IMG/VR virus record: IMGVR_UViG_3300037245_000733
Coordinates: 1-21,584 of that record
DNA length: 21,584 bases
Reading direction: 5' to 3' (one strand)
Source of the DNA: a virus
Numbering within the stretch: position 1 is the first letter of the stretch; every line of letters begins with the position of its first letter. Both the position numbers and the translations under genes were made by a program. This document shows, piece by piece, positions 1 to 20,441 of the stretch. The notes below the pieces were generated by a model. The model had not been told where the DNA came from, ran no database searches, and saw only the letters and a program-made list of their open reading frames with translations.

Positions 1-1
1 T

Positions 2-112
2 GCCTGCCACAATACAGATCGCAATTTCATCGGGATAGAATTAGATGATAATTATTTTAGGATTGCATCTAATCGGATCTACGAAAACAGCAGACAACAG
101 AAATTATTCTAA
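2..112 (+). CDS. DNA methyltransferase, C-terminal fragment (5' end outside window)
   Basis: This is the last 36 residues of a gene that enters the window from the left; the frame is open to base 2 and ends at TAA 110-112. The peptide contains NFIGIELDDNYFRIASNRI. That matches the closing motif of beta-class N6-adenine/N4-cytosine DNA methyltransferases, which usually reads as FIGIE-x-D-x2-YF-x-IA-x-RI and packs next to the AdoMet pocket. The enzyme would methylate phage or host DNA, a common way for phages to avoid restriction. The specificity, catalytic motif and start lie outside the window. It is followed by a control region rather than by a coupled gene, so it probably closes an upstream operon. 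Confidence 0.75.
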   Translation, partial: ACHNTDRNFIGIELDDNYFRIASNRIYENSRQQKLF

Positions 113-165
113 CCCCAAAAAATAACCAACTTTAATTTTAAAATAGCTTGACACTGGGGTGCGGG

Positions 166-183
166 TTGGCACGGGATATGCAA
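166..183 (+). promoter_or_regulatory. Putative sigma-54 promoter P1
   Basis: The sequence TTGGCACGGGATATGCAA fits the RpoN consensus TGGCAC-N5-TTGCA with one mismatch in the -12 box. GG (168-169) and GC (180-181) are 12 bases apart, as required for -24/-12 promoters. Predicted transcription start is near 193, giving a leader of about 200 bases before the first gene. Confidence 0.55.
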
Positions 184-234
184 AACGGTGAATGTGGCAA
201 TATATATACAACAGTGTGTTAAATTTGCAACAAG

Positions 235-251
235 AAAGGTTAATGATTACG
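235..251 (+). repeat. Direct repeat copy 1, AAAGGTTAATGATTACG
   Basis: It is identical to 307-323 except for one base (T/C). The core TAATGATTA is a dyad with a central G, as expected for a dimeric DNA-binding protein. It sits about 110-127 bases upstream of the predicted P2 start, a usual distance for an enhancer-binding-protein site. Confidence 0.55.
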
Positions 252-306
252 CAAGTCAGTTTCTATGTGGTATTTTTTGCAACAGTTTTGATATTTTAGA
301 TAGAGA

Positions 307-323
307 AAAGGTCAATGATTACG
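307..323 (+). repeat. Direct repeat copy 2, AAAGGTCAATGATTACG
   Basis: This is the second copy, 72 bases downstream of the first. It ends 12 bases before the TTGGCAC box of P2. It could be a second activator site or an operator; the sequence alone does not decide. Confidence 0.55.
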
Positions 324-334
324 AGGTTTAAACG

Positions 335-352
335 TTGGCACATGTGTTGCAT
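335..352 (+). promoter_or_regulatory. Putative sigma-54 promoter P2 (near-perfect)
   Basis: TTGGCACATGTGTTGCAT matches the RpoN consensus TTGGCAC-N5-TTGCA without a mismatch in the conserved positions. GG lies at 337-338 and GC at 349-350, exactly 12 apart. The predicted start is near 361-362, which leaves a leader of about 29 bases carrying AAAGGG before the ATG at 391. This makes the ATG at 364 unlikely as a start. Confidence 0.7.
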
Positions 353-390
353 TACCCTAAAGCATGAACGCAATAACAAAGGGAAATAAA

Positions 391-603
391 ATGAAAGATT
401 TTAAAATATCAGAAGACAGAAAAAGCATCGTAATAGAAGACGAAATTGACGGGGTAACAATAATTGCCCAAGCAGACTATGTTTGGAAACCAACCAATGA
501 ACAAGTGAAGGGCTATAACTTGGCAAAGATGATCTATGAATCAGATGATACTGTTGGTGAGATATTCGAGCAATATTACGAGCTAAAGACATTTAATTTC
601 TAA
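391..603 (+). CDS. Small hypothetical phage protein (70 aa)
   Basis: First gene of the plus-strand operon, 70 residues, acidic and soluble with no membrane segment. I chose the ATG at 391 rather than the in-frame ATG at 364. AAAGGG lies seven bases before 391, and the near-perfect -24/-12 promoter predicts a transcript starting near 362, which would leave the 364 codon without a ribosome binding site. The N-terminal half (residues 1-35) alternates short charged and hydrophobic stretches suggestive of beta strands, followed by a helical part. I recognise no family. As the promoter-proximal gene it could be an early regulatory or host-takeover protein, but this is only position-based inference. 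Confidence 0.65.
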   Translation: MKDFKISEDRKSIVIEDEIDGVTIIAQADYVWKPTNEQVKGYNLAKMIYESDDTVGEIFEQYYELKTFNF

Positions 604-628
604 TAAAAAGGGGCAAGGGTAGAATAAA

Positions 629-796
629 ATGACAGAATTAGAAACACTTAGAACCCTTGGCATTTCACTATGTCAACTGGAGGAGCTGATTAGTATACGG
701 GCCATCATATGCTATATTGGCAGAGACGGGGCGACATTTAAGAGGGATGAAGTTCTAGCATTAAAGGCTAAGATGGAACTAGAGGCTACAAATTGA
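629..796 (+). CDS. Small hypothetical protein (55 aa)
   Basis: A 55-residue open frame, MTELETLRTL... to ...MELEATN, with a purine-rich GGGGCAAGGGTAG just upstream. It looks helical and has one Cys-containing hydrophobic stretch in the middle. It ends in TTGA, where the next small frame could start. No family recognised. Position in a tightly packed co-directional operon and the ribosome binding site support it as a real gene. Confidence 0.5.
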   Translation: MTELETLRTLGISLCQLEELISIRAIICYIGRDGATFKRDEVLALKAKMELEATN

Positions 797-942
797 AAAT
801 ACTGCTAACTATTATTGGAATTATCAAAAACATTAGACACGGTAACAAGATACTCGATAACCCTAGAAAGTATGGGATCATAAAGATAACAGGCATGGGG
901 AAATATAACTTTGACGATACAGAAGAGGTGCAAAATGACTAA
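793..942 (+). CDS. Small hypothetical protein, TTG start (49 aa)
   Basis: This frame of 49 residues starts at TTG 793, overlapping the previous stop as TTGA, and ends at TAA 940-942, eight bases inside the next gene. It begins with a hydrophobic KILLTIIGIIKNI stretch followed by a basic and then acidic tail (YNFDDTEEVQND). It fills what would otherwise be a gap between two genes with the usual short overlaps. The rare start codon and lack of homology I can name keep confidence modest. Confidence 0.4.
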   Translation: MKILLTIIGIIKNIRHGNKILDNPRKYGIIKITGMGKYNFDDTEEVQND

Positions 943-2194
943 ACACGCTCTTTATTTTTCCCACGATAGCAATGCAAGAAATGACGAGAAAATCATTAGC
1001 TTGCGTATGTCACTGGGATGGGAAGGGTACGGGCTTTACTGGGGAATAGTTGAGATGCTAAGCGAGAGTACTGATTATGTTATGGAGCTCAATTGTGAAT
1101 TAGTAGCGTTTGCACTACACGGAGATCCCGGTAAAATAAAAGATATAATAATGAACTACAACCTATTCAGTATTAACAATTCCATGTTTAGATCGGAGTC
1201 ACTAAACAGGCGCATGGAGCTCAAGGATAAAAGAGTTGAGAAAGCCAAAAAGGGAGCCAAAGCAAGATGGCACAGTAAAGATAACATCCTAGTATCCACC
1301 GGAGAACTAAGAGACAGTCTGCCTCAAGCGTACATTATATCCTGCGAAGGGAACGGAGAGAAATTTGTAAAAGTAGGAATGACAAAAGAGTACATATCAA
1401 GAAGATATTCTGGACGTATTCCATACAAATACAACGTCTTAAAACAATTCTTTTCTGATGATTGCCTGTCTGTAGAAATAGAGCTCAATACTTTACTTCA
1501 GGATTACAGGTACACGCCATCTCTTAATTTTGCAGGTAAAAAAGAATGTTACACTATGGAATCTCTTAAATTGATCGATTCTTTTGTTTCGTCCTTCGAC
1601 ATAAAAAAAGTGCACACTGTAGATGTTACGCAATGCTTAGCAGATGCAACGCAAGTGCAAAGCAATGCTATAAATAAAGAAAACAATAAAGAAAAGAAAC
1701 AAATAAATAAAGAAAGTAAAACAAAAGACCGTGCATTCGCACTTGAGTTCCTGTCTAATTATTCCATGATTGGGATTAACGAAAAAACATGGGAAGAGTG
1801 GATTGATCACAAAATAGCAATGAAAACCAAAATTACAGAACGTGCTTTGCAGGGTAATATTAACAAGCTCAAGAAAGTACCGGACGCTAACAAGGCCATC
1901 GAAGAGGCCATAGACCGCAATTGGAAGGACATAGTAGTGCATGAGCTACCCGCTTCCAATCCACAGGGCAAGAAAGGGCAACAGGGGAAGGATTATGATA
2001 TAGCATGGGAGCACATCATGACTAGAATTAGGAATCCAAATGCACCTTTAACAGATATTGAAAAAGCTGCAGTCGGTAAAATGGGTGGAATAGATGGATT
2101 CAAACGGATGACTGAGAGAGAGTTAAGCTTTAGAAAGCAGGGTTTGAAGGCGGATTTTATTGGACATTTTGAAAATGAAAAGGGGAAGTTATGA
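935..2194 (+). CDS. Phage replication organizer, Lin1244/DUF4373-type, with inserted GIY-YIG-like domain
   Basis: 419 residues from ATG 935, preceded by AGAAGAGG; a TTG 24 bases earlier is in frame but has no such site. Residues 1-112 match the Lin1244/Lin1753 (DUF4373) N-terminal domain: YFSHDSNARNDEKI, GWEGYGLYWGIVEML, and the KKGAKARW helix that ends it. Residues 132-222 form a separate module, AYIISC...KFVKVGMTK...RR...VEIELNTLL...GKKECYT, like the T5orf172/MUG113 branch of GIY-YIG nucleases, with candidate R156/R157 and E181/E183. An Asn/Lys-rich linker (about 245-265) leads to a C-terminal domain with WEEWIDHK and AIEEAIDRNWK, usual in phage replication initiators. It probably organises replication and may recruit helicase. 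The GIY-YIG insertion is odd; nuclease activity is not proven. Confidence 0.8.
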   Translation: MTKHALYFSHDSNARNDEKIISLRMSLGWEGYGLYWGIVEMLSESTDYVMELNCELVAFALHGDPGKIKDIIMNYNLFSINNSMFRSESLNRRMELKDKRVEKAKKGAKARWHSKDNILVSTGELRDSLPQAYIISCEGNGEKFVKVGMTKEYISRRYSGRIPYKYNVLKQFFSDDCLSVEIELNTLLQDYRYTPSLNFAGKKECYTMESLKLIDSFVSSFDIKKVHTVDVTQCLADATQVQSNAINKENNKEKKQINKESKTKDRAFALEFLSNYSMIGINEKTWEEWIDHKIAMKTKITERALQGNINKLKKVPDANKAIEEAIDRNWKDIVVHELPASNPQGKKGQQGKDYDIAWEHIMTRIRNPNAPLTDIEKAAVGKMGGIDGFKRMTERELSFRKQGLKADFIGHFENEKGKL

Positions 2195-2343
2195 ATAAAA
2201 TTATTTGGTATTTTAAACAGCTATTACCATTAAGATATAAATCAATCTATATTGAAAATGGGCTAAGAACAGAAAGCACGTGGAAAATGTGGATGGGTCG
2301 CTGCTACAATGTCCAATCGAAGATAATAAACCATGATAAGTAA
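2191..2343 (+). CDS. Conserved small phage protein (50 aa)
   Basis: 50 residues, MNKIIWYFKQLLPLRYKSIY... to ...WKMWMGRCYNVQSKIINHDK. It starts at ATG 2191 inside an ATGA overlap with the replication gene; AGGGGAAG is just upstream. The pattern of an aromatic/basic N-terminus (IWYxKQLLPLxY) and a closing WxMWxGRCxN motif is, as far as I recall, a recurrent tiny phage protein of unknown role found beside replication genes. It overlaps the HNH gene that follows by eleven bases. Function unknown. Confidence 0.6.
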   Translation: MNKIIWYFKQLLPLRYKSIYIENGLRTESTWKMWMGRCYNVQSKIINHDK

Positions 2344-2671
2344 AAATAAAAGGCTTGCGATATATATCAGGGATAAATTCGAGTGCGTTTATTGCTGTGC
2401 TAATCTAAGAAGCGTTGGCTCTGAAATGAGGACAGTAGACCACATTAAGACGGTTTCGAGTGGTGGCAAAGATGAGCACTGGAATCTCATCACCTCATGT
2501 TTTAAGTGTAATAACAAGAGAGGAAATTTAAACATCTTTAAGTTTGCCGATGCTGACACACTAAAAAGGATAAGACGACAAACTAACAGGTCTATAAAGT
2601 TGGCGCTCAGGAAAGCTAACAAAATAATAGAACTTGAGAATAGTAGATCGTTCACAAAGGGGATAATATGA
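2333..2671 (+). CDS. HNH endonuclease
   Basis: 112 residues with a classic HNH zinc-finger nuclease core. A first CxxC lies at C18/C21 (FECVYCC), DH at D36-H37 (TVDHI), an SSGGKDEHWNL segment with N51, and a second CxxC at C56/C59 followed by NNKRGN. The motif binds one structural zinc and one catalytic metal and cuts DNA. The C-terminus (about 75-112) is basic and helical. The start at ATG 2333 lies inside the previous gene and lacks a strong ribosome binding site, so translation is probably coupled. It could assist replication or packaging, or be a homing-type nuclease; small phage HNH proteins serve several of these roles. Confidence 0.8.
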   Translation: MISKNKRLAIYIRDKFECVYCCANLRSVGSEMRTVDHIKTVSSGGKDEHWNLITSCFKCNNKRGNLNIFKFADADTLKRIRRQTNRSIKLALRKANKIIELENSRSFTKGII

Positions 2672-2877
2672 AAAAGAATAATCTAAAAAAACAGAACTTA
2701 ACCTTATCAGAAGAGGTTGACCGGCTCAAGCTTTGCATGTACCAGAATGCAAGTGCTTATTGTGGCCAGTCTTGCCCCTATTACGATTATTATGACGGTT
2801 CACTGTGCATGGTAAGCGGTGATTACCTTGAAGAGATGCCATCGAAAGAGTGCACAGAGCAAAGGCGATCAAAATGA
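2668..2877 (+). CDS. Small Cys-rich protein (69 aa)
   Basis: 69 residues starting at ATG 2668 in an ATGA overlap with the HNH gene, with AAAGGGG upstream. The first 22 residues are basic and helical (possible short coiled coil); the rest has C23, C32, C36, C47 and C62 spaced as in a small metal-binding or disulfide fold around a Tyr-rich patch (PYYDYYDG). No family recognised. It belongs to a run of Cys-rich mini-proteins downstream of the HNH nuclease. Confidence 0.6.
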   Translation: MKKNNLKKQNLTLSEEVDRLKLCMYQNASAYCGQSCPYYDYYDGSLCMVSGDYLEEMPSKECTEQRRSK

Positions 2878-3263
2878 ACACATGCCAAAACAAAGATTGC
2901 AACAAACCCTACACCCGCGTTCAGGGTCAGAAAAAGGATTCTAAACTTTGTCCTGTATGTCGAGCTAATGCAAGAGCTGATAAGGATGAGAGGCGCACCC
3001 GTGAGCAAGTTATTTGCATATGTGGCCGCGAGGCTTACAAAACTGATATGATTAATCATGATGGCATTCCACGGTGCCCAGTTTGTGACGTTCTGATTAA
3101 GGCTGCACAAGACAGGGAGGATGATGATATCGTTAAGTATATGGAATCGAAGCAAATGTATTCCAGTGGCCTCAGTGAAATCGGGTCTAATCCGCAAACC
3201 AAGCGCCAACTGCATGCTATGAGAATTGGGGAGTATAATTTTGACAAGAGCGGGGGTAGATGA
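2874..3263 (+). CDS. Double zinc-ribbon-like protein (129 aa)
   Basis: 129 residues from ATG 2874, in an ATGA overlap with the preceding stop. A GTG 24 bases earlier is in frame but less well placed. Two four-Cys groups are visible: C4/C9/C26/C29 (CQNKDC ... CPVC) and C48/C50/C68/C71 (CICG ... CPVC), each able to bind one zinc. A charged linker (RADKDERRTREQ) joins them. The C-terminal 50 residues are helical and without Cys. Such proteins usually bind nucleic acid or protein partners; the precise job is unknown. Confidence 0.65.
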   Translation: MNTCQNKDCNKPYTRVQGQKKDSKLCPVCRANARADKDERRTREQVICICGREAYKTDMINHDGIPRCPVCDVLIKAAQDREDDDIVKYMESKQMYSSGLSEIGSNPQTKRQLHAMRIGEYNFDKSGGR

Positions 3264-3460
3264 TGAGAACCTGGTTCACAAAGAAAAAAAGAAATTCAGG
3301 GTGTATCAATTGTGTGTGGCGAGAGCGACAGGATGGCGTGGATATTTGCAACCCTAACTCAAATCTTACCTTCGATTCATTGCACGGCAAGGTTGAAATT
3401 TTTGATGAATGCTTGCGAAAAAACAAACGTTGCACATGCCGAGATTGGACTTCAAAATGA
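3260..3460 (+). CDS. Small Cys-rich protein (66 aa)
   Basis: 66 residues from ATG 3260, in an ATGA overlap; a second ATG follows immediately at 3263 and either may be used. CGGGGGT upstream gives a ribosome binding site. The basic N-terminus (WFTKKKRNSG) precedes C15/C18 (CINC), C30, C51 and C58/C60 (CTC), again a likely metal-binding arrangement. No family recognised. Confidence 0.6.
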   Translation: MMRTWFTKKKRNSGCINCVWRERQDGVDICNPNSNLTFDSLHGKVEIFDECLRKNKRCTCRDWTSK

Positions 3461-3696
3461 AAAACAGAATTAAATACAATATTGAGTGGAATACAAAAGG
3501 CAACCCATTTGAAAATAGAAAGCTAACAGACAATGCCCTTAGGGTAATTTTGGGTCAGAATCATGGAATGGCTTTAGAATCCTGCTACTGTCAAATGTAT
3601 GACGATTTTACAATCATGTACGATAGCGAGACAAGCGAAAAACTATTAACATACATCATGACTGACGATGGGCTGGAATATGAGGTGCACAGATGA
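3457..3696 (+). CDS. Hypothetical protein (79 aa)
   Basis: 79 residues from ATG 3457, in an ATGA overlap with the previous stop; the frame stays open upstream to 3409, but that part lies within the preceding gene. The product is polar, with a probable mixed alpha/beta fold (KYNIEWNTKG..., MYDDFTIMYDSETSEK). No signal peptide, membrane segment or family motif seen. Confidence 0.55.
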   Translation: MKNRIKYNIEWNTKGNPFENRKLTDNALRVILGQNHGMALESCYCQMYDDFTIMYDSETSEKLLTYIMTDDGLEYEVHR

Positions 3697-4220
3697 AAAA
3701 CAGCATTAAAAACTTAATAGCAGCTCTGATATTTTTCGGGTTGTTTCTGGCTACGATTGAATATTTGTCAGCGGGGGAGACTAGAGACGATGGCCTAATA
3801 TTGGCGCGTTCCTGTTTTGGTGAAACTACACCATGGAATGAAACTGAATGCACCGCAATGCTGTTTGTGTACCTTAAGCGGACGCCAAACGATAGCGATG
3901 TGACAACCACAGCTAAAAAGTATTCATCGGCTTTAAAACGTGGTCAGCATAATAAAAACCGACACTGGTTATTTGAGCTAAACAGGGAATTGGACAAACC
4001 TAAAAGTTGGCCGGACAAGGCAAAGTGGAGTGTATACAAATTGCAATGGGCAAGGCTATTGAAGTTATCAGATGATTTTTTGAGCGGCAAACTGACAGAT
4101 CCTTGTCCAGAATGTGATCACTTTGGCGGGGCCATGGATAAGGCAGACAAGAGTTTGATTTTAGTGAAAACTGATTTTGAATGTAAGAATAAATTTTACA
4201 GGATTAAGGGTAAACAATAA
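3693..4220 (+). CDS. Secreted lysozyme-like/SleB-like protein (putative muralytic)
   Basis: 175 residues starting at ATG 3693 (ATGA overlap). Residues 1-27 are a signal sequence or anchor: basic MKNSIKN followed by hydrophobic LIAALIFFGLFLATIEYL. The mature part has ARSCFGETTPWNETEC (E44, C41, C53), then a helical middle (RHWLFELNREL, W116-type KLQWARLL) and DPCPECDHFGG...KNKFYRIKG near the end (H143, C138, C141, C164). The GE near the start and the late HFGG/NxFYR motif resemble cell-wall hydrolases of the SleB or lysozyme-like type, and the Cys pairs fit an oxidising compartment outside the cytoplasm. With the amidase two genes downstream it may belong to a lysis set. The enzymatic call is tentative. 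Confidence 0.5.
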   Translation: MKNSIKNLIAALIFFGLFLATIEYLSAGETRDDGLILARSCFGETTPWNETECTAMLFVYLKRTPNDSDVTTTAKKYSSALKRGQHNKNRHWLFELNRELDKPKSWPDKAKWSVYKLQWARLLKLSDDFLSGKLTDPCPECDHFGGAMDKADKSLILVKTDFECKNKFYRIKGKQ

Positions 4221-4786
4221 TGAATATTAAAATCATAAAGTACATTCCCGGTGAAACGCCAAATTTTAAACGGTACACATCGAGCAAGCCAGTGCCTTGC
4301 TATACTGACATTACCCAGTTGTGGGTATTGCAGAATAATGTTGTGGATAAATTCCTGATTAAGATTAAACTTAAAGGCTGGCGTAAATGGAAAAAGTTTT
4401 GGATTACATTGAAAGCATTTGCAGGGCTGATAACTGACAAGGCATCAACTCCAATTGCAAGCTCAGATTGGTATCCGGCAAGGCTGGCCTATTTATGGCA
4501 TGATATCCTTTTTTCTACGCACTGTTTTAGGCAGTTTGCAGAGTATGGAGACGATGGCTTTCGTGCCTCGAATATGTTCTTTAGAAAAATAATTGATTTG
4601 TATATTAAGCGAAGTTTCAAATATAAAATAATCAGCAAGCTCCGTGCATTCTTCTGGCATATCAAAAAACGTATTTGGTGGCGGTCTGTTGGTAGTATAG
4701 TAGGACAGGGGCTGTATGTCAACGGGTCGCCAAAGAGGGGGTATCATGGGAAGTTTTCAGCTTGTGAGATTGAGAGGGTGATGTGA
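4220..4786 (+). CDS. DUF1353 family protein
   Basis: 188 residues; ATG 4220 shares its A with the previous TAA (TAATG). The segment GLITDKASTP (about 69-78), followed by WYPARLAYLWHDILF (about 84-98) and ASNMFFRKIID (about 115-125), fits DUF1353. That family has a T-D-x-A-S-x-P motif, then A-x2-x-HD-x-LY/F and a late polar helix. The C-terminus is very basic and aromatic (FFWHIKKRIWW) and could bind membrane or nucleic acid. DUF1353 genes are common in phages, often near lysis or tail genes, but no activity is established that I know of. Confidence 0.65.
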   Translation: MNIKIIKYIPGETPNFKRYTSSKPVPCYTDITQLWVLQNNVVDKFLIKIKLKGWRKWKKFWITLKAFAGLITDKASTPIASSDWYPARLAYLWHDILFSTHCFRQFAEYGDDGFRASNMFFRKIIDLYIKRSFKYKIISKLRAFFWHIKKRIWWRSVGSIVGQGLYVNGSPKRGYHGKFSACEIERVM

Positions 4787-4787
4787 T

Positions 4788-4958
4788 ATGTTTGAGCACA
4801 AGTACAAATTAGTAGATGACGAAAGCCGGGAAAAGTGGCTGGCAGATCTTGAAGTGCTCAAAGAAGAGTTGGCAAAATCAGCACCGGAGGCTTTAGCAGA
4901 ACAACGAAGGCGAAACGCTGAAAATTATTCGTTAAGTTTAACAAGGGGATTGAATTAG
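4788..4958 (+). CDS. Small helical protein (56 aa)
   Basis: 56 residues between the DUF1353 gene and the amidase gene, starting at ATG 4788, one base after the previous stop, and ending one base before the next start. The sequence is strongly charged and helical (SREKWLADLEVLKEELAKS), with no membrane segment, so it does not look like a holin. A GAGAGGGTG run upstream serves as ribosome binding site. No family recognised. Confidence 0.5.
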   Translation: MFEHKYKLVDDESREKWLADLEVLKEELAKSAPEALAEQRRRNAENYSLSLTRGLN

Positions 4959-4959
4959 T

Positions 4960-5544
4960 ATGACCAAAATTGAATACGTAATATTAGAAACAGGCCACGG
5001 TAAAACACTTGTGAATAAAAGGATTGATACACGGGGCAAGCGAAGTACAGACGGGTACAAAGAGGGTGACGGGAATGCAAGACTTGCCCGTGCTATTGAG
5101 ATATTTATGGCTGGTAAATATACAGTTCAAAACCTGCTTGGCAACTGTCCAATAAACGTGCCATTGAAAGCTAGGGTTAAAACTGCTAACCTATTTGCAC
5201 GGACGAAATCAGTCTTTATTAGTTTGCACTCAAATGCCTCTACAAATAAAGGTTGGGGACGCGCAAGGGGTGTAACTGTATTTTATTATAGGGGATCTGT
5301 AGAGGGCAAAAAGCTCGCTCAGTGCATTAGTGATAGCTTGGCACTCAAAAGCAAATTGAAAAACAGAGGTATTAAGCCTTGTTCTTTTTACGTGCTTAAA
5401 AATACAACTATGCCAGCGGTGTTAATTGAGTGCGGATTTATGGACAATAAAAAAGACCTTGAGATAATTAAGAATGACGTTGATATTCACGCTTGTGCAA
5501 TTACTCAAGGGGTGGTTAATTATGAGAGGGGGAGGTTAAAATGA
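4960..5544 (+). CDS. N-acetylmuramoyl-L-alanine amidase (amidase_3), endolysin
   Basis: 194 residues. It would cut the bond between N-acetylmuramic acid and L-alanine in peptidoglycan. The amidase_3 signature is complete: ILETGHG near the start (zinc ligand H13), E35 in the YKEGDGNARLARAIE segment (zinc ligand), ISLHSNAS (H90, third ligand) and AVLIECGFMDN (catalytic E157). Length is right for the catalytic domain alone, with no added wall-binding domain and no signal peptide, so export needs a holin or another route. AAGGGG lies nine bases before the ATG. It sits in the replication-side operon, opposite in strand to the tail genes, and next to the lysozyme-like protein at 3693. Confidence 0.88.
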   Translation: MTKIEYVILETGHGKTLVNKRIDTRGKRSTDGYKEGDGNARLARAIEIFMAGKYTVQNLLGNCPINVPLKARVKTANLFARTKSVFISLHSNASTNKGWGRARGVTVFYYRGSVEGKKLAQCISDSLALKSKLKNRGIKPCSFYVLKNTTMPAVLIECGFMDNKKDLEIIKNDVDIHACAITQGVVNYERGRLK

Positions 5545-5756
5545 GACTACTCACCCAAACAGAATTAAAACAGCATTGTCCGCATTTGACGTGCGAGCAG
5601 TGGGCAGACCAGAATATTTATGCTGATTCACATGGGTGGCTATGGTTTGATGCAGTAGGTGAGCGGTTGCCATTGTTTAATCTGGTCAATAAAGTCAGGG
5701 TTCATTTGTGCATTCCGGAGCTTAAGGATGTTCCGAAGTTTGGGGGTAAATCATGA
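5541..5756 (+). CDS. Hypothetical protein (71 aa)
   Basis: 71 residues, ATG 5541 in an ATGA overlap with the amidase stop and GGGGGAGG upstream, so translation should be efficient. Contains HCPHLTCEQW and a Trp/Asp-rich HGWLWFDAVGERLPLF segment. Possibly a small DNA- or protein-binding domain; no family recognised. Confidence 0.6.
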   Translation: MRLLTQTELKQHCPHLTCEQWADQNIYADSHGWLWFDAVGERLPLFNLVNKVRVHLCIPELKDVPKFGGKS

Positions 5757-6163
5757 AACGCAATAACATTGAATCCAGAATCCAAATAGCCGCAATGGTT
5801 GAGATTGAAAAGCTGTTCAATTATCGGTGGAAGGAATTTTTGATACCACTTGAAAATAGCAAGAAAGAGATTGTAATGTCATCTCCCGTGTATGCGGTTC
5901 CTAACGGTTCAAATCGAAACGTTGTTACTGCTACCATTTTGAAGAAGGAGGGCGTTAAAAGCGGGGTGAGCGATTTAATATTACCACTTGCAAACCTACA
6001 TTACAATTCACTGTGGATTGAAGTCAAAAAGCCAAAAGGTAGGCAGTCAAAGAATCAATTGCAGTGGGAAATATACTGCAATAAGTTTGGGATTAAATAC
6101 GTGATTTGCTACAGTACACAAGAAATTATTGACACGGTGATTAGCTATATGGGGGATGTATGA
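5753..6163 (+). CDS. VRR-NUC domain nuclease
   Basis: 136 residues. VRR-NUC proteins are PD-(D/E)XK-type nucleases that phages use in replication or recombination, for example on junction or flap structures. The expected elements are present in order: ESRIQ helix near the N-terminus (E7, Q11), AVPNGSNRN (48-56), KKEGVKSGVSDLILP with D74, LWIEVKKPKGRQSKNQ with E90, K92 and Q102, then a helix and FGIKYVICYSTQE as the last strand. Length is typical of the stand-alone phage form. Start at ATG 5753 in an ATGA overlap, with GGGGG upstream. Metal-dependent activity is likely since the catalytic residues are intact. Confidence 0.85.
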   Translation: MKRNNIESRIQIAAMVEIEKLFNYRWKEFLIPLENSKKEIVMSSPVYAVPNGSNRNVVTATILKKEGVKSGVSDLILPLANLHYNSLWIEVKKPKGRQSKNQLQWEIYCNKFGIKYVICYSTQEIIDTVISYMGDV

Positions 6164-6282
6164 AGACTTATACAGATGGAGTATACACGGTAGAAGCAAG
6201 GCACAAAGCTCATGCGTTCGATTTATTGGCTATCCTTCACGGCCACTATGAGATCGGGACAATCACTGAGGTGAAAAAATGA
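6160..6282 (+). CDS. Very small hypothetical protein (40 aa)
   Basis: 40 residues, MKTYTDGVYTVEARHKAHAF... to ...TEVKK. It is linked by ATGA overlaps on both sides (6160 with the VRR-NUC stop, 6279 with the next start), and GGGGGATG upstream gives a binding site. The double coupling is the main evidence that it is translated. No family recognised. Confidence 0.5.
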   Translation: MKTYTDGVYTVEARHKAHAFDLLAILHGHYEIGTITEVKK

Positions 6283-6464
6283 AAAAACCAATCAACAAGT
6301 TCATGATGGTAACTTACACTTGCCCAAAATGCAAAGCTGAAAAAGAGGGTTTCAGGGCGGTTCCTGAGACTTGCAGGAAATGCAAAATTGAAATGGAAGT
6401 TTCGACAATGCAGAATCATAAGGTTGATGGAGTGAGGGGGTTTCGAGAGAACGACAAAAATTAA
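6279..6464 (+). CDS. Zinc-ribbon mini-protein (61 aa)
   Basis: 61 residues from ATG 6279 (ATGA overlap). Two CxxC knuckles, C15/C18 (CPKC) and C32/C35 (CRKC), are spaced as in a rubredoxin-type zinc ribbon. The rest is basic and polar. It is the last gene before the terminator region at 6509-6571. Probably a nucleic-acid or protein-binding accessory factor; exact role unknown. Confidence 0.6.
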   Translation: MKKPINKFMMVTYTCPKCKAEKEGFRAVPETCRKCKIEMEVSTMQNHKVDGVRGFRENDKN

Positions 6465-6473
6465 ACACACGCC

Positions 6474-6502
6474 TTGACGCTGGAGAATAAAAAGAGTATT
6501 AA
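6474..6502 (+). promoter_or_regulatory. Putative sigma-70 promoter
   Basis: TTGACG (6474-6479), a 17-base spacer and TATTAA (6497-6502). Transcription would begin near 6508-6510, just at the first of three hairpins and only about 60 bases before a terminator. No open frame of useful size lies between. Confidence 0.45.
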
Positions 6503-6508
6503 CGTATT

Positions 6509-6571
6509 GCAACTTTCCGTTGCCCCTCCACAGGGTAAGCCTCATTACTTTATTGTATTGGGGCTTTTTTT
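6509..6571 (+). ncRNA. Candidate phage small RNA (three stem-loops)
   Basis: Directly after a sigma-70-like promoter lie GCAAC/GTTGC (6509-6523, loop 5), CCCT/AGGG (6524-6535, loop 4) and AAGCCTC/GGGGCTT (6537-6566), the last followed by a T-run. The unit would give an RNA of about 60-65 nt. The first two hairpins are not needed for termination, which is why I consider an RNA product. It may also simply be an elaborate end of the upstream operon. Confidence 0.35.
6537..6571 (+). terminator. Rho-independent terminator of the plus-strand operon
   Basis: Stem AAGCCTC (6537-6543) with GGGGCTT (6560-6566), one U-G wobble, 16-base loop, then a run of T through 6571. Well placed after the last coupled gene. 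Confidence 0.65.
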
Positions 6572-6581
6572 ATGTTATAAG
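6553..6581 (+). promoter_or_regulatory. Weak extended -10 promoter for the HNH gene
   Basis: TG-T-TATAAG (6573-6581) forms an extended -10 element; the -35 region (TTGTAT, 6553-6558) is poor. It lies just after the terminator and 30 bases before the HNH start, so it would allow separate expression. Confidence 0.3.
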
Positions 6582-6610
6582 GTGGTATCTTTTGTGGAGG
6601 AGATAAAAAA

Positions 6611-7159
6611 ATGAATCATAAAAAATGTAGCAGATGTGGCATAGTTAAAGATTTTGGTAGTTTTTATAAAAACAAGAACATGAAATACGGACTACAGGGC
6701 CAGTGCAAGGATTGCAACCGTGAATACCAAAGAGAAAACAAAGAGGAAAGAGCAGAATATAAGCGCAATTATTACAAGTCCAACAAGGAATCCATAGAAA
6801 CTAAGAAGCGCAAGTATCAATCAGAGAACAAGGAAAAAATAGCAGAATACAAGCGCAGGTACGGGAAGGAAAACGCCGAATATATAGCAATCAAGAGGAG
6901 AGAATATCGCCAAACCGAGAAAGGTAAAGCTAGCGAGATTGCAAGAAGTGTCAAGTCTGCTTTAAAATTCCCTCAAAAACGCAAGGCAAGAATCGCGGTA
7001 AGCAATGCAATAAGATTAGGAAAGCTAATACGCCAGCCATGTGAAGTATGCGGAGCCGATAATAAAATACAGGCTCATCATCCTGATTACTCGCAGCCTT
7101 TAATTGTAACTTGGCTATGTATGAAACATCACGTAGCACTTCATGTAGAATTGAGATAG
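6611..7159 (+). CDS. HNH-type endonuclease with N-terminal zinc ribbon
   Basis: 182 residues with three parts. An N-terminal four-Cys ribbon (CSRCG ... CKDCN, residues 6-36) resembles the start of many phage HNH proteins. A long Lys/Glu-rich helical stretch (about 38-105) carries imperfect repeats of the type ENKEKIAEYKRRY. The C-terminal nuclease core (about 118-182) shows AVSNAIRLGKLIRQPCEVCG, then IQAHHPDYSQPL and VTWLCMKHHVALH, matching the HNH family with the HHxDYxxPLxVxWLC signature. GGAGGAG precedes the ATG. It is isolated by a terminator upstream and lies at the border of the two gene blocks, a usual place for a free-standing homing endonuclease; that role is inferred. Confidence 0.8.
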   Translation: MNHKKCSRCGIVKDFGSFYKNKNMKYGLQGQCKDCNREYQRENKEERAEYKRNYYKSNKESIETKKRKYQSENKEKIAEYKRRYGKENAEYIAIKRREYRQTEKGKASEIARSVKSALKFPQKRKARIAVSNAIRLGKLIRQPCEVCGADNKIQAHHPDYSQPLIVTWLCMKHHVALHVELR

Positions 7160-7165
7160 CACAAT

Positions 7166-7191
7166 AAACAGGCCTAGTAATTAGCCTATTT
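7166..7191. terminator. Possible bidirectional terminator between convergent operons
   Basis: AAACAGGC (7166-7173) pairs with GCCTATTT (7184-7191) with one mismatch around a 10-base loop. It lies between the HNH stop and the fibre-like gene's stop, which face each other. The flanking A/T tracts are short, so strength is uncertain. Confidence 0.3.
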
Positions 7192-8104
7192 AGTTAACCA
7201 AGCTAGGGTCATAGTCGATATACATTACAACATCACCGGTAATAGTCGGCACTCCAGCGGCTGTTATAGTGCCAAGCATTTTTTCCACTGTCAGCCATGT
7301 GCTATCATATGAGAACTCACAAGTCATAGGCACATATACGCGCCTAGCTGGCACGGCGTCTCTTGTATAATAAACTCCAACATTGTGAATTGTTGCGCCG
7401 ACTGGTACACCCGTTAGCACAACTTGATCGTTAATTGTCATAAGGTTGTCAGTAACTGTAACACTCGCAAACGGATTTACAAACGAGTTTCTACGGGTTG
7501 TCACTGCTGTGCCGGGGGTTGTGCCTGTATAGCGAGTGCCACCATTGAAAAGATCAGATATTAGCGAATAGGTGTCACCATCGGGGGCAATTTGCGACAA
7601 TGCATTACTACTTAGAACAGTTTGAGCTCCTGTTGAAGTGTTAGCAATGGCAATTGTATTAACGTTGATAGTTAAAAGCTGATTACCGCTTGTGATAATT
7701 GTTGAACCATCCGCCAACTGTGTCAACGAAATCGGCATAGTATCCAAAGCTTCCCTGTACTGCCCCGCCGCTATATCCGGATCGCCGTCTGGAACTATGC
7801 CGGCCTTTTGCAATAGCCCCTGTAGAAACCCCTGTACGTCATTCCTTAGCTTGGCAATCTGTGGCGTTCCATCGTCGGCACCTTCTGTGGTTTCATTCTG
7901 CGCCGACCCATAAGGATAGTCTGCATCGGGTGGCACATGCCTACCCGCAAGTTCTGCTAGTGTGCTAAAATTTAAAGCCATATCGCCCTCCCCTTCATCA
8001 TAATAATTATACTCATTGTAAACATCTTGATCGTTATCATAATCAAAGTCCTGCTCTGCACAATTCAAAGAAAGTGCTACTAAAATTAAAACCCATTTTG
8101 CCAT
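7190..8104 (-). CDS. Tail-fibre-like protein with two possible starts (304 or 263 aa)
   Basis: From M42 (start codon at 7979-7981) the protein reads MALNFSTLAELAGRHVPPDADYPYGSAQN and continues with a helix and KAGIVPDGDP. That is the common N-terminus of phage fibre or structural proteins (VPPxxADYPYGSA...). AAGGGGAGG lies six bases before this ATG. The frame is also open upstream to an ATG at 8104 with its own AAAGGGG and a good sigma-70 promoter. This longer start adds 41 residues: a short signal-like MAKWVLILVALSLNC, then a very acidic stretch rich in D, Y and N. C15 could be a lipidation site, although S12-L13-N14 is not a standard lipobox. The remainder (about 125-304) is beta-rich. It is the last gene of the tail block. 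I think the 263-residue form is the fibre; the long form may be a separate expressed product. Confidence 0.65.
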   Translation of the reverse strand: MAKWVLILVALSLNCAEQDFDYDNDQDVYNEYNYYDEGEGDMALNFSTLAELAGRHVPPDADYPYGSAQNETTEGADDGTPQIAKLRNDVQGFLQGLLQKAGIVPDGDPDIAAGQYREALDTMPISLTQLADGSTIITSGNQLLTINVNTIAIANTSTGAQTVLSSNALSQIAPDGDTYSLISDLFNGGTRYTGTTPGTAVTTRRNSFVNPFASVTVTDNLMTINDQVVLTGVPVGATIHNVGVYYTRDAVPARRVYVPMTCEFSYDSTWLTVEKMLGTITAAGVPTITGDVVMYIDYDPSLVN

Positions 8105-8135
8105 AATAAACCCCTTTTGTTAGTTGCCTTGGTTT

Positions 8136-8163
8136 ATTATAGCGCATTATTGTACTTTTGCAA
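8136..8163 (-). promoter_or_regulatory. Sigma-70 promoter for the terminal fibre-like gene
   Basis: On the minus strand TTGCAA (8163-8158), a 16-base spacer and a perfect TATAAT (8141-8136). Predicted start near 8129, about 25 bases before the ATG at 8104, with AAAGGGG in between. No other gene of the tail block inside the window shows a promoter of this quality. Confidence 0.6.
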
Positions 8164-8170
8164 ATATAAT

Positions 8171-8410
8171 TCATATTGCAATCCAGCCTGCGTTTTCAAG
8201 TACTTTTAAAATTACACCGCCAACTAAAAGGGCAGACCATGCGCCACGCTCTTTGGTCATTAGTGGCTTTCTAGTTGACACCTTTGTTAGTGCGTCAATT
8301 CGCTCATCCATATGGCCTAGTTTTAAATCGATGTTTTCTTTAAATGAATCTAGCCATTTATTGAGGCCGTCTTTGAATTCGTCAAATGTCGCTTGGTCTG
8401 CTTTAGTCAC
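8171..8410 (-). CDS. Small single-TM protein (79 aa), holin-like candidate
   Basis: 79 residues from a GTG at 8408-8410 with AGGAG seven bases upstream. Residues 1-55 are soluble and helical (FDEFKDGLNKWLDSFKENIDLKLGHMDERIDAL, possible coiled coil); residues 58-79 are a hydrophobic segment, GAWSALLVGGVILKVLENAGWIAI, ending the protein. A coiled coil followed by one terminal membrane helix resembles XhlA-type or other accessory lysis membrane proteins. The fibre/lysis border is a normal place for holins in Mu-like phages. The assignment rests on topology and position only. Confidence 0.5.
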   Translation of the reverse strand: MTKADQATFDEFKDGLNKWLDSFKENIDLKLGHMDERIDALTKVSTRKPLMTKERGAWSALLVGGVILKVLENAGWIAI

Positions 8411-8431
8411 TGTATGCTCCTGTTCTGGTTA

Positions 8432-8764
8432 TCACTTATCAAAATCAAACATTTTTAACATCGGCCCCGTAAAGAATTGAGACGCCGCGCCGTTTTTCTT
8501 AACCATTTTACCTTCAATTTCAATTTCTTCGTTAAGTATTTCACGCACTTTTGAGATAGGAAAGGGTATAGCATCAATTTCAATATCGGCCCACTTTTCA
8601 GCGTTCGTCGCATCTTTTAAATTATGTTTTTCATGGATGGCATCTTGAATCATCGTCGCACGTAAACCGATTTCAAGGGCAAGCTCCCCCGGCAAGTTTT
8701 TACGCTCATCGCGTCCAGTACGCTCTAAAATGTTTCGACCTTCAAATTGTTCTAATTTTATCAT
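8432..8764 (-). CDS. Hypothetical protein (110 aa) downstream of fibre gene
   Basis: 110 residues with AAAGGAG before the ATG at 8762-8764. Soluble, acidic and mainly helical (LPGELALEIGLRATMIQDAIHE, ISKVREILNEEIEIEGKM). No motif or family recognised. The position after tail spike and fibre genes would suit a fibre assembly chaperone or a small structural protein, but nothing in the sequence proves this. Confidence 0.6.
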   Translation of the reverse strand: MIKLEQFEGRNILERTGRDERKNLPGELALEIGLRATMIQDAIHEKHNLKDATNAEKWADIEIDAIPFPISKVREILNEEIEIEGKMVKKNGAASQFFTGPMLKMFDFDK

Positions 8765-8778
8765 TTTTATTTGCTCCT

Positions 8779-9834
8779 TTATTTTAAATATCTAAGTTCT
8801 ATCAGATAGGCGTCGCCAATATCGTGGAAACTACTGCCAAGTCTCAAATTGAGGTCCACGCCTTGTATCTCAAGTGCCGAAAAGGCTGTACTCGCCAGAT
8901 AAGAACCGAGGGACAAGTGCTGTGTTGACCCGTTGTAAATATCGCCTTTAATTCCTGTAAATCGCGTTATCGGGCAAGTTGCCCATAATGGTTGTATTTC
9001 AGTATCAACTGTAACAGTTTCATCAAAGCGTATATAATAAGCTTGCTCACTACCTACGAATCCGTCGTAATATTCTGTGATAGTTCCGCCTGCTATGGAC
9101 AAGGCCGGTGTCTCTAGAACTCCGGTTAAAACATTAACTTTTTTACCGCTGCCTATCTCTTCATGCACATACGCCGGTGCTGAAACTGCAACGGTTGTTG
9201 TGTCGATGTGCGGGAAGTTGGCGGCTATTGTGCCCTCGTTGACCTGAACTTCTTTTATATCTGCATAAACACTAACCCCGTCACCCATAAAGCTGTCTAC
9301 AATTCCGTCCAGTGTCAGTGCTATAAATCCCGTGTTAGATCCGACACTGGACTTAGCTTGAGATGCGCAAAAATACCAGCCCTCGCCATCATCGGTTATC
9401 CTAGTAACGTCTGCTGCGGTATTCAACACAGTACCAGTACCTAAATCAAAATTAGTCTCTGCAAATGTACCACCACCCATTGAAGTTCTAATAAAGTCGA
9501 CTACTCCCTTTCGAGCTTTCATACTAAAAGTTACAGTCTTGTCTCTTATGTCTAGTGCCGGTGTAGAGATAAGATGTGTTCCACTTACTGCGGTTGCAAT
9601 GAGTCCACTTGTCCCACTTATGTCAACCCTGCCTTTACCCCACGATAATTGTGCAAGGTCACTACTCCAGATGACAAGATTCCAATAATAAATCAGCTTT
9701 AAAAACCAAGCTTTAATCCCGTCTTCTGCTGGCACGTCTTCGGATATGAATACGCCATTGAGGTGGGTGGCGTTGCCTATGTCACTCAATACCTCCGCGC
9801 TTAAATCTGCTAATATAATATCATTTTGTCCCAT
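8779..9834 (-). CDS. Tail fibre/appendage protein with jelly-roll-like binding domain
   Basis: 351 residues. The N-terminal 45 residues probably attach to the tail. Residues about 50-215 match a module often found in phage appendages: N-L-x-x-x-S-x-D-x-x-x-x-x-W near the start (NLVIWSSDLAQLSW), TFSMKARKG, FDLGTGTVLN, DDGEGWYFCASQ and a closing EVQVNEGTIAANFPHIDTT. This module is usually predicted to be a beta-sandwich that binds carbohydrate. The C-terminal part (about 225-351) has further beta structure. AAGGGGG precedes the ATG, which overlaps the stop of the upstream spike gene. It likely helps in host recognition together with that spike. Confidence 0.7.
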   Translation of the reverse strand: MGQNDIILADLSAEVLSDIGNATHLNGVFISEDVPAEDGIKAWFLKLIYYWNLVIWSSDLAQLSWGKGRVDISGTSGLIATAVSGTHLISTPALDIRDKTVTFSMKARKGVVDFIRTSMGGGTFAETNFDLGTGTVLNTAADVTRITDDGEGWYFCASQAKSSVGSNTGFIALTLDGIVDSFMGDGVSVYADIKEVQVNEGTIAANFPHIDTTTVAVSAPAYVHEEIGSGKKVNVLTGVLETPALSIAGGTITEYYDGFVGSEQAYYIRFDETVTVDTEIQPLWATCPITRFTGIKGDIYNGSTQHLSLGSYLASTAFSALEIQGVDLNLRLGSSFHDIGDAYLIELRYLK

Positions 9835-12455
9835 TATACATGCCCCCCTTCACACCATTTAGTGTATGTAACTTGTGAGCCTGATATGGAAAAATTACCG
9901 CTTAAGGTTGTGGCCTGAACACTTATCCAGACGTGATCGCCAAAGCCTCCGTCTCTACGTGAGACAATATTAGAGACATCAAGGTCAACTTCAAAAAATT
10001 CAAATATGTTTACTGTAACTGCCCTTGATACAATCTCTGTAATTAAACCGGGAGCAAGAGCTGGATTTGATGTGTATGCCGTATCGCCGTCTGCTACGTG
10101 AAACATTCTCACTGTAAATTCAATTGTAGCAGATGCGCTTGGAACACCCTTCCAAATCAGCTTTAAGGGTGATGAGGTATCGCAATCGTAAGGTAAGAAC
10201 CCGTTTACTCCAGTTATGTCTGACGTGGCTGTAAATTTATTAGTTGTAAATCCTACTGCAACATCTTCATTGACCCACAAAGATTGATTTTGCATATTGC
10301 CAGCGAATGGACTTGCACCCGATAAGTTAACAGGCAATTGACCTATTGACCTTGCTTGTCCTCTAAATTCCAGCCACCCGTCAGAGTTTGGCTCAAATGT
10401 GTCAGTGTGCAATTTGAATTGTTCAAATATTGGGGCTGTATCTATTTCTGTGGCCACTCTAAATCTAGCCCAATAGTAACTAGTTCCAAGTGCGGGCACT
10501 ATAGGATCGTTTTTCGTCCAACTATCAATTACAAGCTGTGAATTATACCGTATATGCGCCGACCCTGTTCTCTCAAAGTAATCTTTAGCATGTGGAAACC
10601 TGCCTTGTTCCTCATCAACTTCAAATCCGTTTACTTCTGCCCAGCTTGCGCCGTTCCAATATTCAATTACTATTTCACCTGCACCGGGAACGCATGCTGT
10701 ATCAATCTTGGCCTTAATTCCCGGATGCTCTAAAAACTCCAATGTCTCACTATCCTTGAGGCTTGACGCGATATAAACGGCATTGTCTGCGGTTAATCCC
10801 GGTATTGTGAAGGTTGATACACTGGCACTTCTCGCCTCTGTTGACACGTCCGTAAAATCAGCACCATCATATTCAAAAACAAACATACCGCGAGTGTAGG
10901 AATCGCCCCGGCCTTGACTTGATTCAGCACCTTTTTCAGGAGAGCCGACGTGTAGTTCGCCTAAAACATCAAAACCCTCATCGTCCTCTTTTAGCGTTAT
11001 ATTGCCCATTATCATACGGACACCTGGAACACGGTTAACCAAGTCGCCTGAGATTTGACCACTACCCGAGAGTGTGCAAGTTGCACTTAATAAATTTATA
11101 TCCCATTGCGTGCTGCCTTCAATGTTCATGCTCTGGACTGTCACGTCTGTATTGCTGCCCGTGTCGTTTATTCTCAATCCGTCCTGTCCGCAATTGAATA
11201 TCGCGCCACCGTTTATTTTTACATTTGCTCCGCCCTGAACAACCACGCCGTCAAGACTGCCAACAATCGAAATATTAGAAGCCACGCAACGGCATAGGTC
11301 GCGCATGTATATACCGGTTAATAAGCCGGGATTGAATGATTTTAGGCTGGTTATATCTATAATTGAACCAACACCCGTGCCCTCTATTAGTGTTGTAACG
11401 TCACCGGCAACGCTTCGTATTCCGTTTATAATAGCCGATCCGCTTTCAACAAATACGCCCTTTGCCGTTGTTGCTGTAGTGCTAACAAATCCAATATTGT
11501 CCGCTGTGAAATTTGCACTTGCATGGTTTATGTTTATACCGTTTTCGCAATCTGAAAAAATACAACGAGCAATTGAGGATAAACCGGCCACTGTATGCGA
11601 AACTGCATATCCCGTGCCTGTTACTCCATGAAACGAAACGCCAGAAATAGTAAAAAGGTTGACCATTTCAAACATGTTCACGTTTGGGGTCAAGTGTGTA
11701 AGTCTTACTGTTTGGAGGTCGCCAAGTCCTCTGATAGATAGGTATTCTTTGCCCGTTATTGTACCCGTGATCTCATATGTACCCGGAGCCACATCAATTG
11801 CCCATCGATTGCTCGCGCTTGTCGCACCTGTAAAAGCCACCGCAGCCGCCAAATCGTCAAAATCTCCGCCTGTTTCAGCCACTAATAAATAGTTTTGTGC
11901 TTTTACTATTTTTACATTACTAGTTAAATTTACGTTGCCAACAAACCATAGCTTTGTCCCGGTTGCTGGAGCCACTGAAAATTCAACTGTATCACCTGTT
12001 ATAGTGTAATTATCGTCTGCAAGTCTACCATTCCAAAAAGCCATACCCTCATCATTTACAACGTCACCGGACGGGATTGTGAAAGTAGTATTTACGCCGT
12101 CAACCGTACCTGTTAAGGCTTCGGAAATAAAACCGCCTAGAATATAAAGCCAAACCGCCGCGCCGGGGGTATTGTCAATACAAATATAATAGGCTCCACT
12201 TGCCGTATTCAGCCACGTTTCCATAGTGTTGTAACCGTTTGCACTGTCACTTGTAACTAGTGGATCGCTTGTCTCTTGATACGATGCCTTGTACTCTTTA
12301 ATGTTTCCAGATGGATCAGAAATAAAAACGTCACCTGTATCACTTGCAAAGAAGATATGATTTTCAGCATTAGCGACACCGGCCAAAATCTGCGCCCTTG
12401 TAAAGCTATTGTCTTGTCTAATATCCGCTATGTCTGTGGGTGTTGGTTCTGCCAT
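9834..12455 (-). CDS. Beta-helix tail spike protein
   Basis: 873 residues, the largest gene here. Residues 1-105 form an N-terminal attachment region with DSANGYNTMETWLNTASGAYYICIDN-type sequence (in parts) known from phage fibres. Residues about 110-180 are beta-rich. Residues about 190-485 look like a right-handed parallel beta-helix (pectin-lyase fold): GGDFDDLAAAV, then VAPGTYEITGTITGKEYLSI and successive short strands with ladder-like I/V and N residues. The remainder (about 500-873) has HVGSPEKGAESSQGRGDSY and more beta domains, often seen at the end of such spikes. It probably binds and may cleave a surface polysaccharide; catalytic residues cannot be assigned from sequence. It sits directly after gp48, as expected for the host-range gene. 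Confidence 0.78.
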   Translation of the reverse strand: MAEPTPTDIADIRQDNSFTRAQILAGVANAENHIFFASDTGDVFISDPSGNIKEYKASYQETSDPLVTSDSANGYNTMETWLNTASGAYYICIDNTPGAAVWLYILGGFISEALTGTVDGVNTTFTIPSGDVVNDEGMAFWNGRLADDNYTITGDTVEFSVAPATGTKLWFVGNVNLTSNVKIVKAQNYLLVAETGGDFDDLAAAVAFTGATSASNRWAIDVAPGTYEITGTITGKEYLSIRGLGDLQTVRLTHLTPNVNMFEMVNLFTISGVSFHGVTGTGYAVSHTVAGLSSIARCIFSDCENGININHASANFTADNIGFVSTTATTAKGVFVESGSAIINGIRSVAGDVTTLIEGTGVGSIIDITSLKSFNPGLLTGIYMRDLCRCVASNISIVGSLDGVVVQGGANVKINGGAIFNCGQDGLRINDTGSNTDVTVQSMNIEGSTQWDINLLSATCTLSGSGQISGDLVNRVPGVRMIMGNITLKEDDEGFDVLGELHVGSPEKGAESSQGRGDSYTRGMFVFEYDGADFTDVSTEARSASVSTFTIPGLTADNAVYIASSLKDSETLEFLEHPGIKAKIDTACVPGAGEIVIEYWNGASWAEVNGFEVDEEQGRFPHAKDYFERTGSAHIRYNSQLVIDSWTKNDPIVPALGTSYYWARFRVATEIDTAPIFEQFKLHTDTFEPNSDGWLEFRGQARSIGQLPVNLSGASPFAGNMQNQSLWVNEDVAVGFTTNKFTATSDITGVNGFLPYDCDTSSPLKLIWKGVPSASATIEFTVRMFHVADGDTAYTSNPALAPGLITEIVSRAVTVNIFEFFEVDLDVSNIVSRRDGGFGDHVWISVQATTLSGNFSISGSQVTYTKWCEGGHV

Positions 12456-13228
12456 TAGCTCACCTTGTCCTTAATTACAGCCGTGTCGCCGTAAGTGTCT
12501 TTTAATACGTCCGTAGCACCATAAGTGCTTTTGATTATTGTGTGCTCATTAACCAGCAAAACGCATCTTAAATGCATTGGTTTATATTTGTAAATAAGTC
12601 TCTCAAGCTCAAGCAATGTGTCATTTTTTATACTTGCAAAATTTGGGAATGTCTCCGCACCAACATAAAAGTAGTTCGGGTATAAATCAGTATCATCAAC
12701 AGCAAAGTATTTTTTATCTGTAAATAATATTCCAGAAAATGAGCCATCTTGTGAACCGTCACCATCCTGTGAGCCGTCACCATCTTGGTATGTATAATTC
12801 AAACCGACTGTTTGTATCTTATTTACAAGTAGATTGTTATTTACACGGTCAATTAGTGGAATAGGATTGCGAGCATTTGGTACACTGTCAGCCCACCACT
12901 CATGCACAAAGCAATTAGTGAAACCATTGGCCTGTAATATGTTCTGCAGAAAGTTTGGAGACTGTCCAGCTCCCTGTGACCATTCATTTTCAAGTTGTTC
13001 AGCCGTTCGCGCATTTGCAAAGCCGAATTGCTCTGACCATTCTAATAGATAATTGGTAGTATTTGGGAATATCTCAAGAAATAAACCGGCAACGTGATCA
13101 TGTATAATTTTGGGAACAATAGACAGGGCTTTGATATAAAGGCTTAAAGTCTTTTCGATAATAATTGTCCACGCCCTGCCCTTTGGCAGTAGGAATGAAA
13201 CAAATTTTTGCCAAAAAGTTAACTCCAT
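12455..13228 (-). CDS. Baseplate protein, Mu gp48/YmfQ family (DUF2313)
   Basis: 257 residues. FLLPKGRAW at the N-terminus is the usual first motif of YmfQ/gp48 proteins, which join the baseplate wedge to tail fibres. A second landmark is the closing YKYKPMHLRCVLL, like the family's late PAHT-type segment. In the middle is a tandem repeat DGDGSQDGDGSQDGSF. The last 25 residues are an extension with a near duplication, STYGATDVLKDTYGDTAVIKD. The gene starts inside the end of the gp47 gene and ends at the ATG of the spike gene, so all three are likely co-translated. The spike gene downstream supports the wedge-to-fibre role. Confidence 0.8.
   Translation of the reverse strand: MELTFWQKFVSFLLPKGRAWTIIIEKTLSLYIKALSIVPKIIHDHVAGLFLEIFPNTTNYLLEWSEQFGFANARTAEQLENEWSQGAGQSPNFLQNILQANGFTNCFVHEWWADSVPNARNPIPLIDRVNNNLLVNKIQTVGLNYTYQDGDGSQDGDGSQDGSFSGILFTDKKYFAVDDTDLYPNYFYVGAETFPNFASIKNDTLLELERLIYKYKPMHLRCVLLVNEHTIIKSTYGATDVLKDTYGDTAVIKDKVS
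12753..12788 (-). repeat. 18-bp tandem repeat in the gp48-like gene
   Basis: Two near-identical 18-base units (12753-12770 and 12771-12788, differing at a few bases) with a related partial unit beside them (12741-12752). They encode the QDGDGS repeat. In-frame gain or loss of units would change loop length without shifting the frame. Confidence 0.65.
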
Positions 13229-14397: not shown

Positions 14398-14831
14398 GAC
14401 TTCTTATCCAATTCTATAGCCAGCGTCTGTGAGACTCCATTGGCTAAAATTAAAATTGTTTCAATTTTTACTCTATTTGTACTCAGTGCGTAAACCGTGC
14501 AATCAAGTGCTGTAATCAAGTCGCCAAATCCAACACTTAAATCATCAATGCACGCATCTTTTAAAGTCTGCATTGTGCCGCTTGTAATTGGCATACCGTT
14601 TAAAAGTGCTTGTACGCGCCCTCTGTACTGTCTTTCGACTGGTTCGTCTTCATTGCCAAGCCATTCAAGATGCTTTGTGTCAGGCGTGTTAATATCGTTT
14701 TCATTGCCACCAACTAAAATCAAATAATACATAGATTCAAGACCGGCTGTCATTGTGATAATACCGTCAACACTCTCAATGTCGCCATCGTCTACGCCCT
14801 GAAATATTAAAACGTCACCTGCTTGTGTCAT
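14394..14831 (-). CDS. Baseplate protein, Mu gp46-like
   Basis: 145 residues. DVLIFQGVDDGDIESVDG at the start, then LESMYYLILVGGNENDINT and WLGNEDEPVERQ, agree with the GP46 family (gpW/gp25-like wedge protein of Mu-type phages), which begins with a D-x-x-x-x-x-x-D-D-G-D-I pattern and continues with L-x-L-x-G-G-N-x-x-D. The last part is a beta-rich L-x-I-x-I-x-L-x-N-G. It is overlapped on both sides by neighbours (ATGA), in the Mu gene order. Confidence 0.85.
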   Translation of the reverse strand: MTQAGDVLIFQGVDDGDIESVDGIITMTAGLESMYYLILVGGNENDINTPDTKHLEWLGNEDEPVERQYRGRVQALLNGMPITSGTMQTLKDACIDDLSVGFGDLITALDCTVYALSTNRVKIETILILANGVSQTLAIELDKKS

Positions 14832-20362: not shown

Positions 20363-20380
20363 AATACAAACCCCTTTGTT

Positions 20381-20425
20381 AAAAAATGGGGGGCTTTCAA
20401 ACAGGCAGGGTCACGCCCGCCCCCC
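20381..20425 (-). terminator. Strong internal terminator between tube and chaperone genes
   Basis: On the minus strand GGGGGGC (20425-20419) pairs with GCCCCCC (20394-20388), with 24 bases between them, followed by ATTTTTT (20387-20381). A seven-G/C stem followed by a T-run is a textbook rho-independent terminator. It lies inside the tail operon, after the tube gene. Confidence 0.75.
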
Positions 20426-20441
20426 AAAATGTAAAACCCTC

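Follow-up and report, generated by a model that had tools for sequence, protein, structure and literature searches.

The question raised by this locus is whether two elements resembling sigma-54 (RpoN) promoters, which lie in a short gap ahead of the replication genes of a phage, are real -24/-12 elements, and whether the host's RpoN uses them to transcribe the genes behind the gap. The window, i.e. the whole stretch of 21,584 bases that was analysed, is an IMG/VR virus record. It opens with the end of an upstream ORF (positions 2–112, + strand), as read from the sequence, that is truncated by the contig end and whose C-terminus has a GIELDDNYF motif suggestive of DNA N6-methyltransferases. 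The gap (113–390, 278 bases) extends from the stop of this ORF to the ATG at position 391. Behind it lies a block of + strand genes (391–7159) that begins with a gene for a 70-aa protein without family match (391–603) and its upstream AAGGGA, and continues with a replication initiator (935–2194), an HNH endonuclease (2333–2671), an Amidase_3 endolysin (4960–5544), a VRR-NUC nuclease (5753–6163), and a closing endonuclease (6611–7159). The initiator has domain matches to Lin1244_N and T5orf172, and its C-terminal part matches O-like initiators; the T5orf172 domain sits between the N- and C-terminal parts, which is an unusual fusion. As the block encodes both a replication initiator and an Amidase_3 endolysin, the name replication/lysis operon that the preliminary description had given it is fair. 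A converging block on the - strand (7190–21562) carries contractile-tail genes for baseplate, hub, tape measure, and tail sheath. The phage is myovirus-like. By their tail genes, the nearest named relatives are phages that infect Shewanella, Aeromonas, Vibrio, and Oceanospirillum, all of which are groups that carry RpoN. The early regions of all four fetched tail-gene relatives differ from that of the window.

P2 (335–351, + strand; TTGGCACATGTGTTGCA) is a perfect sigma-54 element, TTGGCAC-ATGTG-TTGCA, while P1 (166–182, + strand; TTGGCACGGGATATGCA), TTGGCAC-GGGAT-ATGCA, has a single mismatch, an A for T at position 178 before the TGC. Direct reading upheld the full match and the one-mismatch copy that had been described at 335–352 and 166–183, respectively, and shortened each by one base at its end. 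The GG-N10-GC spacing of the -24 and -12 dinucleotides is present in both. With the GC taken as -13/-12, transcription is predicted to start at about 362 for P2 and about 193 for P1; the interval from 362 to the ATG at 391, which contains AAGGGA, is 29 bases long, as originally described. We scored both elements with a matrix derived from ChIP-tested Salmonella sites, namely the 29 intergenic ones listed in Table 3 of PMC3844500. P2 (19.9) and P1 (16.7) are the top two sites of the 21.6-kb window, the third scoring 12.2, and in their TGGCACR-N4-TTGCW context both fall within the range of the 29 Salmonella sites (16.1–23.5). Both lie within the gap and are oriented into the replication operon. 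When the + strand of 113–390 was scanned for sigma-70-like sites, none reached 9/12. Directly observed are both elements with their strength, position, and orientation, as well as a gap that lacks any sigma-70 consensus promoter.

Matches to the sigma-54 pattern with at most one mismatch occur four times in the window (0.58 expected) and twice in the gap (0.012 expected), and none of 3000 shuffles gave two. Four sites scoring at least 15 were found in approximately 455 kb of comparison phage DNA (L002–L034), two of them apparently duplicates (so three to four), which corresponds to a density of about one per 100 kb. Because only three to four such sites occur in approximately 455 kb, as compared to two in one short gap, the pair is not readily attributed to chance. 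From this density we estimate that about 0.002 sites would be expected in the gap; the presence of two would be a coincidence in the order of one in a million, or perhaps one in ten thousand once the range of motifs that could have been looked for is taken into account. Some correction is due, since the preliminary description had looked for many kinds of motifs, and P2 falls within a mini-ORF (315–389) whose codons might have created the motif. That these codons or random sequence produced the resemblance is nevertheless unlikely, even after a hundredfold correction. P1 and P2 are very probably real sigma-54 elements.

The gap also contains two short reading frames that both begin with MIT and each have their own ribosome-binding site and ATG. 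The first (235–300, + strand) comprises a ribosome-binding site and an 18-codon mini-ORF (MITQVSFYVVFFATVLIF, ORF at about 244–300) and includes one copy of a 17-mer (AAAGGTYAATGATTACG, 235–251), whereas the second (307–389, + strand) comprises the other copy of the 17-mer (307–323) and a 24-codon mini-ORF (315–389) that ends one base before the ATG at 391. The duplicated 17-mer (235, 307) was considered as an enhancer site and was rejected, as it consists of a ribosome-binding site plus ATG. The position of P2 inside the second mini-ORF, which has a good start, counts against a promoter. Neither an inverted repeat with arms of at least six bases nor an IHF site was found in 1–400, and no activator gene was seen in the window. 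The lack of a visible enhancer site or activator in the window likewise weighs against promoter function; enhancers for enhancer-binding proteins are not known to share a consensus. The leader RNA at 193–395 is not unusually folded (z 0.43), and Rfam and tRNA searches gave no matches.

Taken together, we assign a probability of roughly 60% to P1 and P2 being real sigma-54 elements that are used as promoters by host RpoN and feed the block 391–7159. The promoter reading proposed in the preliminary description agrees with every sequence feature, with matrix scores like those of tested promoters, and with place and direction, and promoters of the early operon are what the two elements most likely are; their binding, activation, and use are what we infer from these features. 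Host RpoN-RNA polymerase would bind P1 and P2 as a closed complex, which a host enhancer-binding protein would open. The P2 transcript would then begin near 362, which is 29 bases upstream of the first gene, and the P1 transcript near 193, with a leader carrying the two mini-ORFs; both transcripts would feed the replication/lysis block. Sigma-54 promoters fire only with an activated ATPase, and a phage that replicates under their control would await a signal of the host or react to one. It is reasonable to infer regulation of the operon by the nitrogen, motility, or stress state of the host and, if true, the host's nitrogen, envelope, or motility state could govern the timing of lysis.

Searches for relatives returned few informative loci. 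The hub protein retrieved one close relative from viral_contigs (L025, 9.2 kb, hub 86% identical), which does not include the promoter region, and the amidase retrieved one distant match, while the first operon gene, a 188-aa protein, and the VRR-NUC protein retrieved no relatives from this collection. DNA similarity of 1–8000 and 113–400 to phage records gave nothing useful. In the genome collection, the hub protein had no match, and the initiator identified four distant loci in Bacteroidota MAGs. The fetched initiator relatives have at most one further early gene in common with the window and no site of the P1/P2 kind near the initiator; this counts against promoter function, although none of them keeps the operon. 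The strict sigma-54 pattern was absent from all 14 named phages, which were chosen mostly as tail or endolysin relatives.

We further scanned the viral collection for the tandem layout TTGGCACN6TGC-N138..168-TTGGCACN6TGC, which was detected in 99 viral stretches (L035–L133), as compared to 20 for a permuted control pattern of identical base composition. The pairs lie outside long ORFs in 80 of the 99 stretches and in about one of the 20 controls; the other 19 sigma-54 pairs are within long ORFs, as are nearly all control pairs, which represent coding repeats. When grouped by DNA, the 80 stretches and the window form 36 groups, and when grouped by protein, 31. The window stands apart from all others, its sole sequence relatedness to the array phages being one endonuclease match. 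Where tested, the array stretches are phages, with terminases, portal, primase/helicase, rIIA/rIIB, and endolysin. The pairs often belong to arrays, the densest of which have 35 sites scoring at least 14 in 15.8 kb (L167), 33 in 17 kb (L169), and 23 in 17.4 kb (L166). A single record can contain as many as 13 occurrences of the strict pattern, and its backward reading is absent throughout. The existence of this class of phages makes phage use of RpoN more plausible.

The array sites also bear on the possibility that another protein, for example a phage initiator, reads the motif as an operator or replication iteron and that its resemblance to the sigma-54 consensus is coincidental. At positions left free by the search, 197 non-redundant sites have R after TTGGCAC (0.96), T before TGC (0.82), and W after TGC (0.95), and there is almost no information outside the sigma-54 element. 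Among TTGGCA words that were missed by the search pattern, 44 of 84 near arrays complete the sigma-54 consensus, as compared to 4 of the 177 located far from them. TTGCW was counted 145 times at offset 11 from TGGCAY and no more than six times at any other offset, and TGGCAT can replace TGGCAC in array sites, an exchange that is also found in the Salmonella set. The logo of about 30 unrelated groups is thus that of sigma-54 in its TGGCAC/TGGCAT exchange and in its R, T, and W positions, which argues against an operator or iteron, as do the presence of only two copies in the window and the lack of a DnaA box in its first 2.5 kb. An RpoN-like DNA-binding domain, whose absence likewise speaks against this alternative, is encoded in none of the 49 records searched, window included. 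In its favour, the replication initiator gene comes after P1 and P2, and the arrays of the largest group, 28 contigs, include two DnaA boxes (TGTGGATAA; L039:1640–1880, L086, L110, and relatives), as in an origin; the array control region of this group may double as a replication origin. The P1 core recurs, spacer included, as an exact 15-base copy (GGCACGGGATATGCA) within the coding strand of a tail gene (approximately 11604–11618, - strand), which also suits a site for another protein. On balance, we consider an operator or iteron unlikely. At one array locus (L115:14054–14275), sigma-54-like sites recur with an exact period of 41 bases, as a tandem repeat near the locus end.

Arrangement of the array sites was informative in two directions. 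Extra sites have the orientation of the pair in 152 cases and the opposite one in 56, and in L166 sites are located 66–67 bases upstream of a gene four times; both features support the array sites as promoters. Opposed to this are the face-to-face or back-to-back sites spaced 18–27 bases apart, some arrays that face away from genes, and the lack of an AT-rich stretch: the 12 bases after TTGCW in the array phages have a GC content of 0.476 versus 0.440 locally, which also counts against P1 and P2 as promoters. Such features fit binding better than transcription, and the sites could instead hold the host sigma-54 holoenzyme as RpoN decoys or road-blocks, with the operon being read from an upstream promoter. 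Consistent with this, 48 of 50 array records are without an activator match, and the two matches found are weak. For the window, a decoy role is nonetheless doubtful: at a low phage copy number, two sites would not suffice to titrate a sigma factor, and both face the operon at promoter-like distance, with the 152 versus 56 bias of the array sites pointing the same way. A phage-encoded RpoN or single-subunit RNA polymerase as the reader of the arrays was rejected, as none was found in 49–50 records, the polymerase search being without positive control. Given the lack of an encoded RpoN-like domain and only two weak activator matches in 50 records, the arrays are probably read by host RpoN.

As a broader and more tentative proposal, to which we give somewhat less than even odds, many unrelated phage lineages would carry consensus sigma-54 arrays within control regions to fire genes via host enhancer-binding proteins or to soak up RpoN, and the window would be a two-site example placed before replication genes. 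The array phages suggest that sigma-54-driven control, or a sigma-54 sponge, evolved several times, and use of the RpoN switch by phages may be much commoner than the literature indicates. Searches of open-access literature returned no description of phage sigma-54 arrays, which seem undescribed within this literature.

The statement of the preliminary description that phage genes under RpoN control are rarely reported is fair, with Pseudomonas phage YuA (Yuavirus) as a precedent, the development of which is, according to PMC5053324, strictly dependent on host sigma-54. The YuA record AM749441 annotates three high-activity promoters with the -24/-12 consensus. These promoters (L174; 38392–38570, 40888–41035, 47152–47312) match the sigma-54 matrix poorly despite high reporter activity, and two of the three promoter clones yielded no sigma-54 site; the poor consensus matches of these reported promoters count against promoter function of P1 and P2. 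No relatedness between YuA and the window was found. Both have host-sigma-54-type promoters or candidates ahead of phage genes; in YuA these are among structural/late genes and of weak consensus, whereas those of the window are near-perfect and ahead of replication genes. Salmonella RpoN promoters are located 27–154 bases from the gene (PMC3844500, Table 3) and have motif, spacing, and matrix score range in common with P1 and P2, which differ from them in being part of a phage. Element, tandem spacing (138–168 bases searched), location in a gap, and usually one direction are shared with the array phages L035–L133. In those phages the number of sites reaches 35 within about 16 kb. With its two sites, the window falls outside a class defined by at least three sigma-54-type elements in one non-coding gap.
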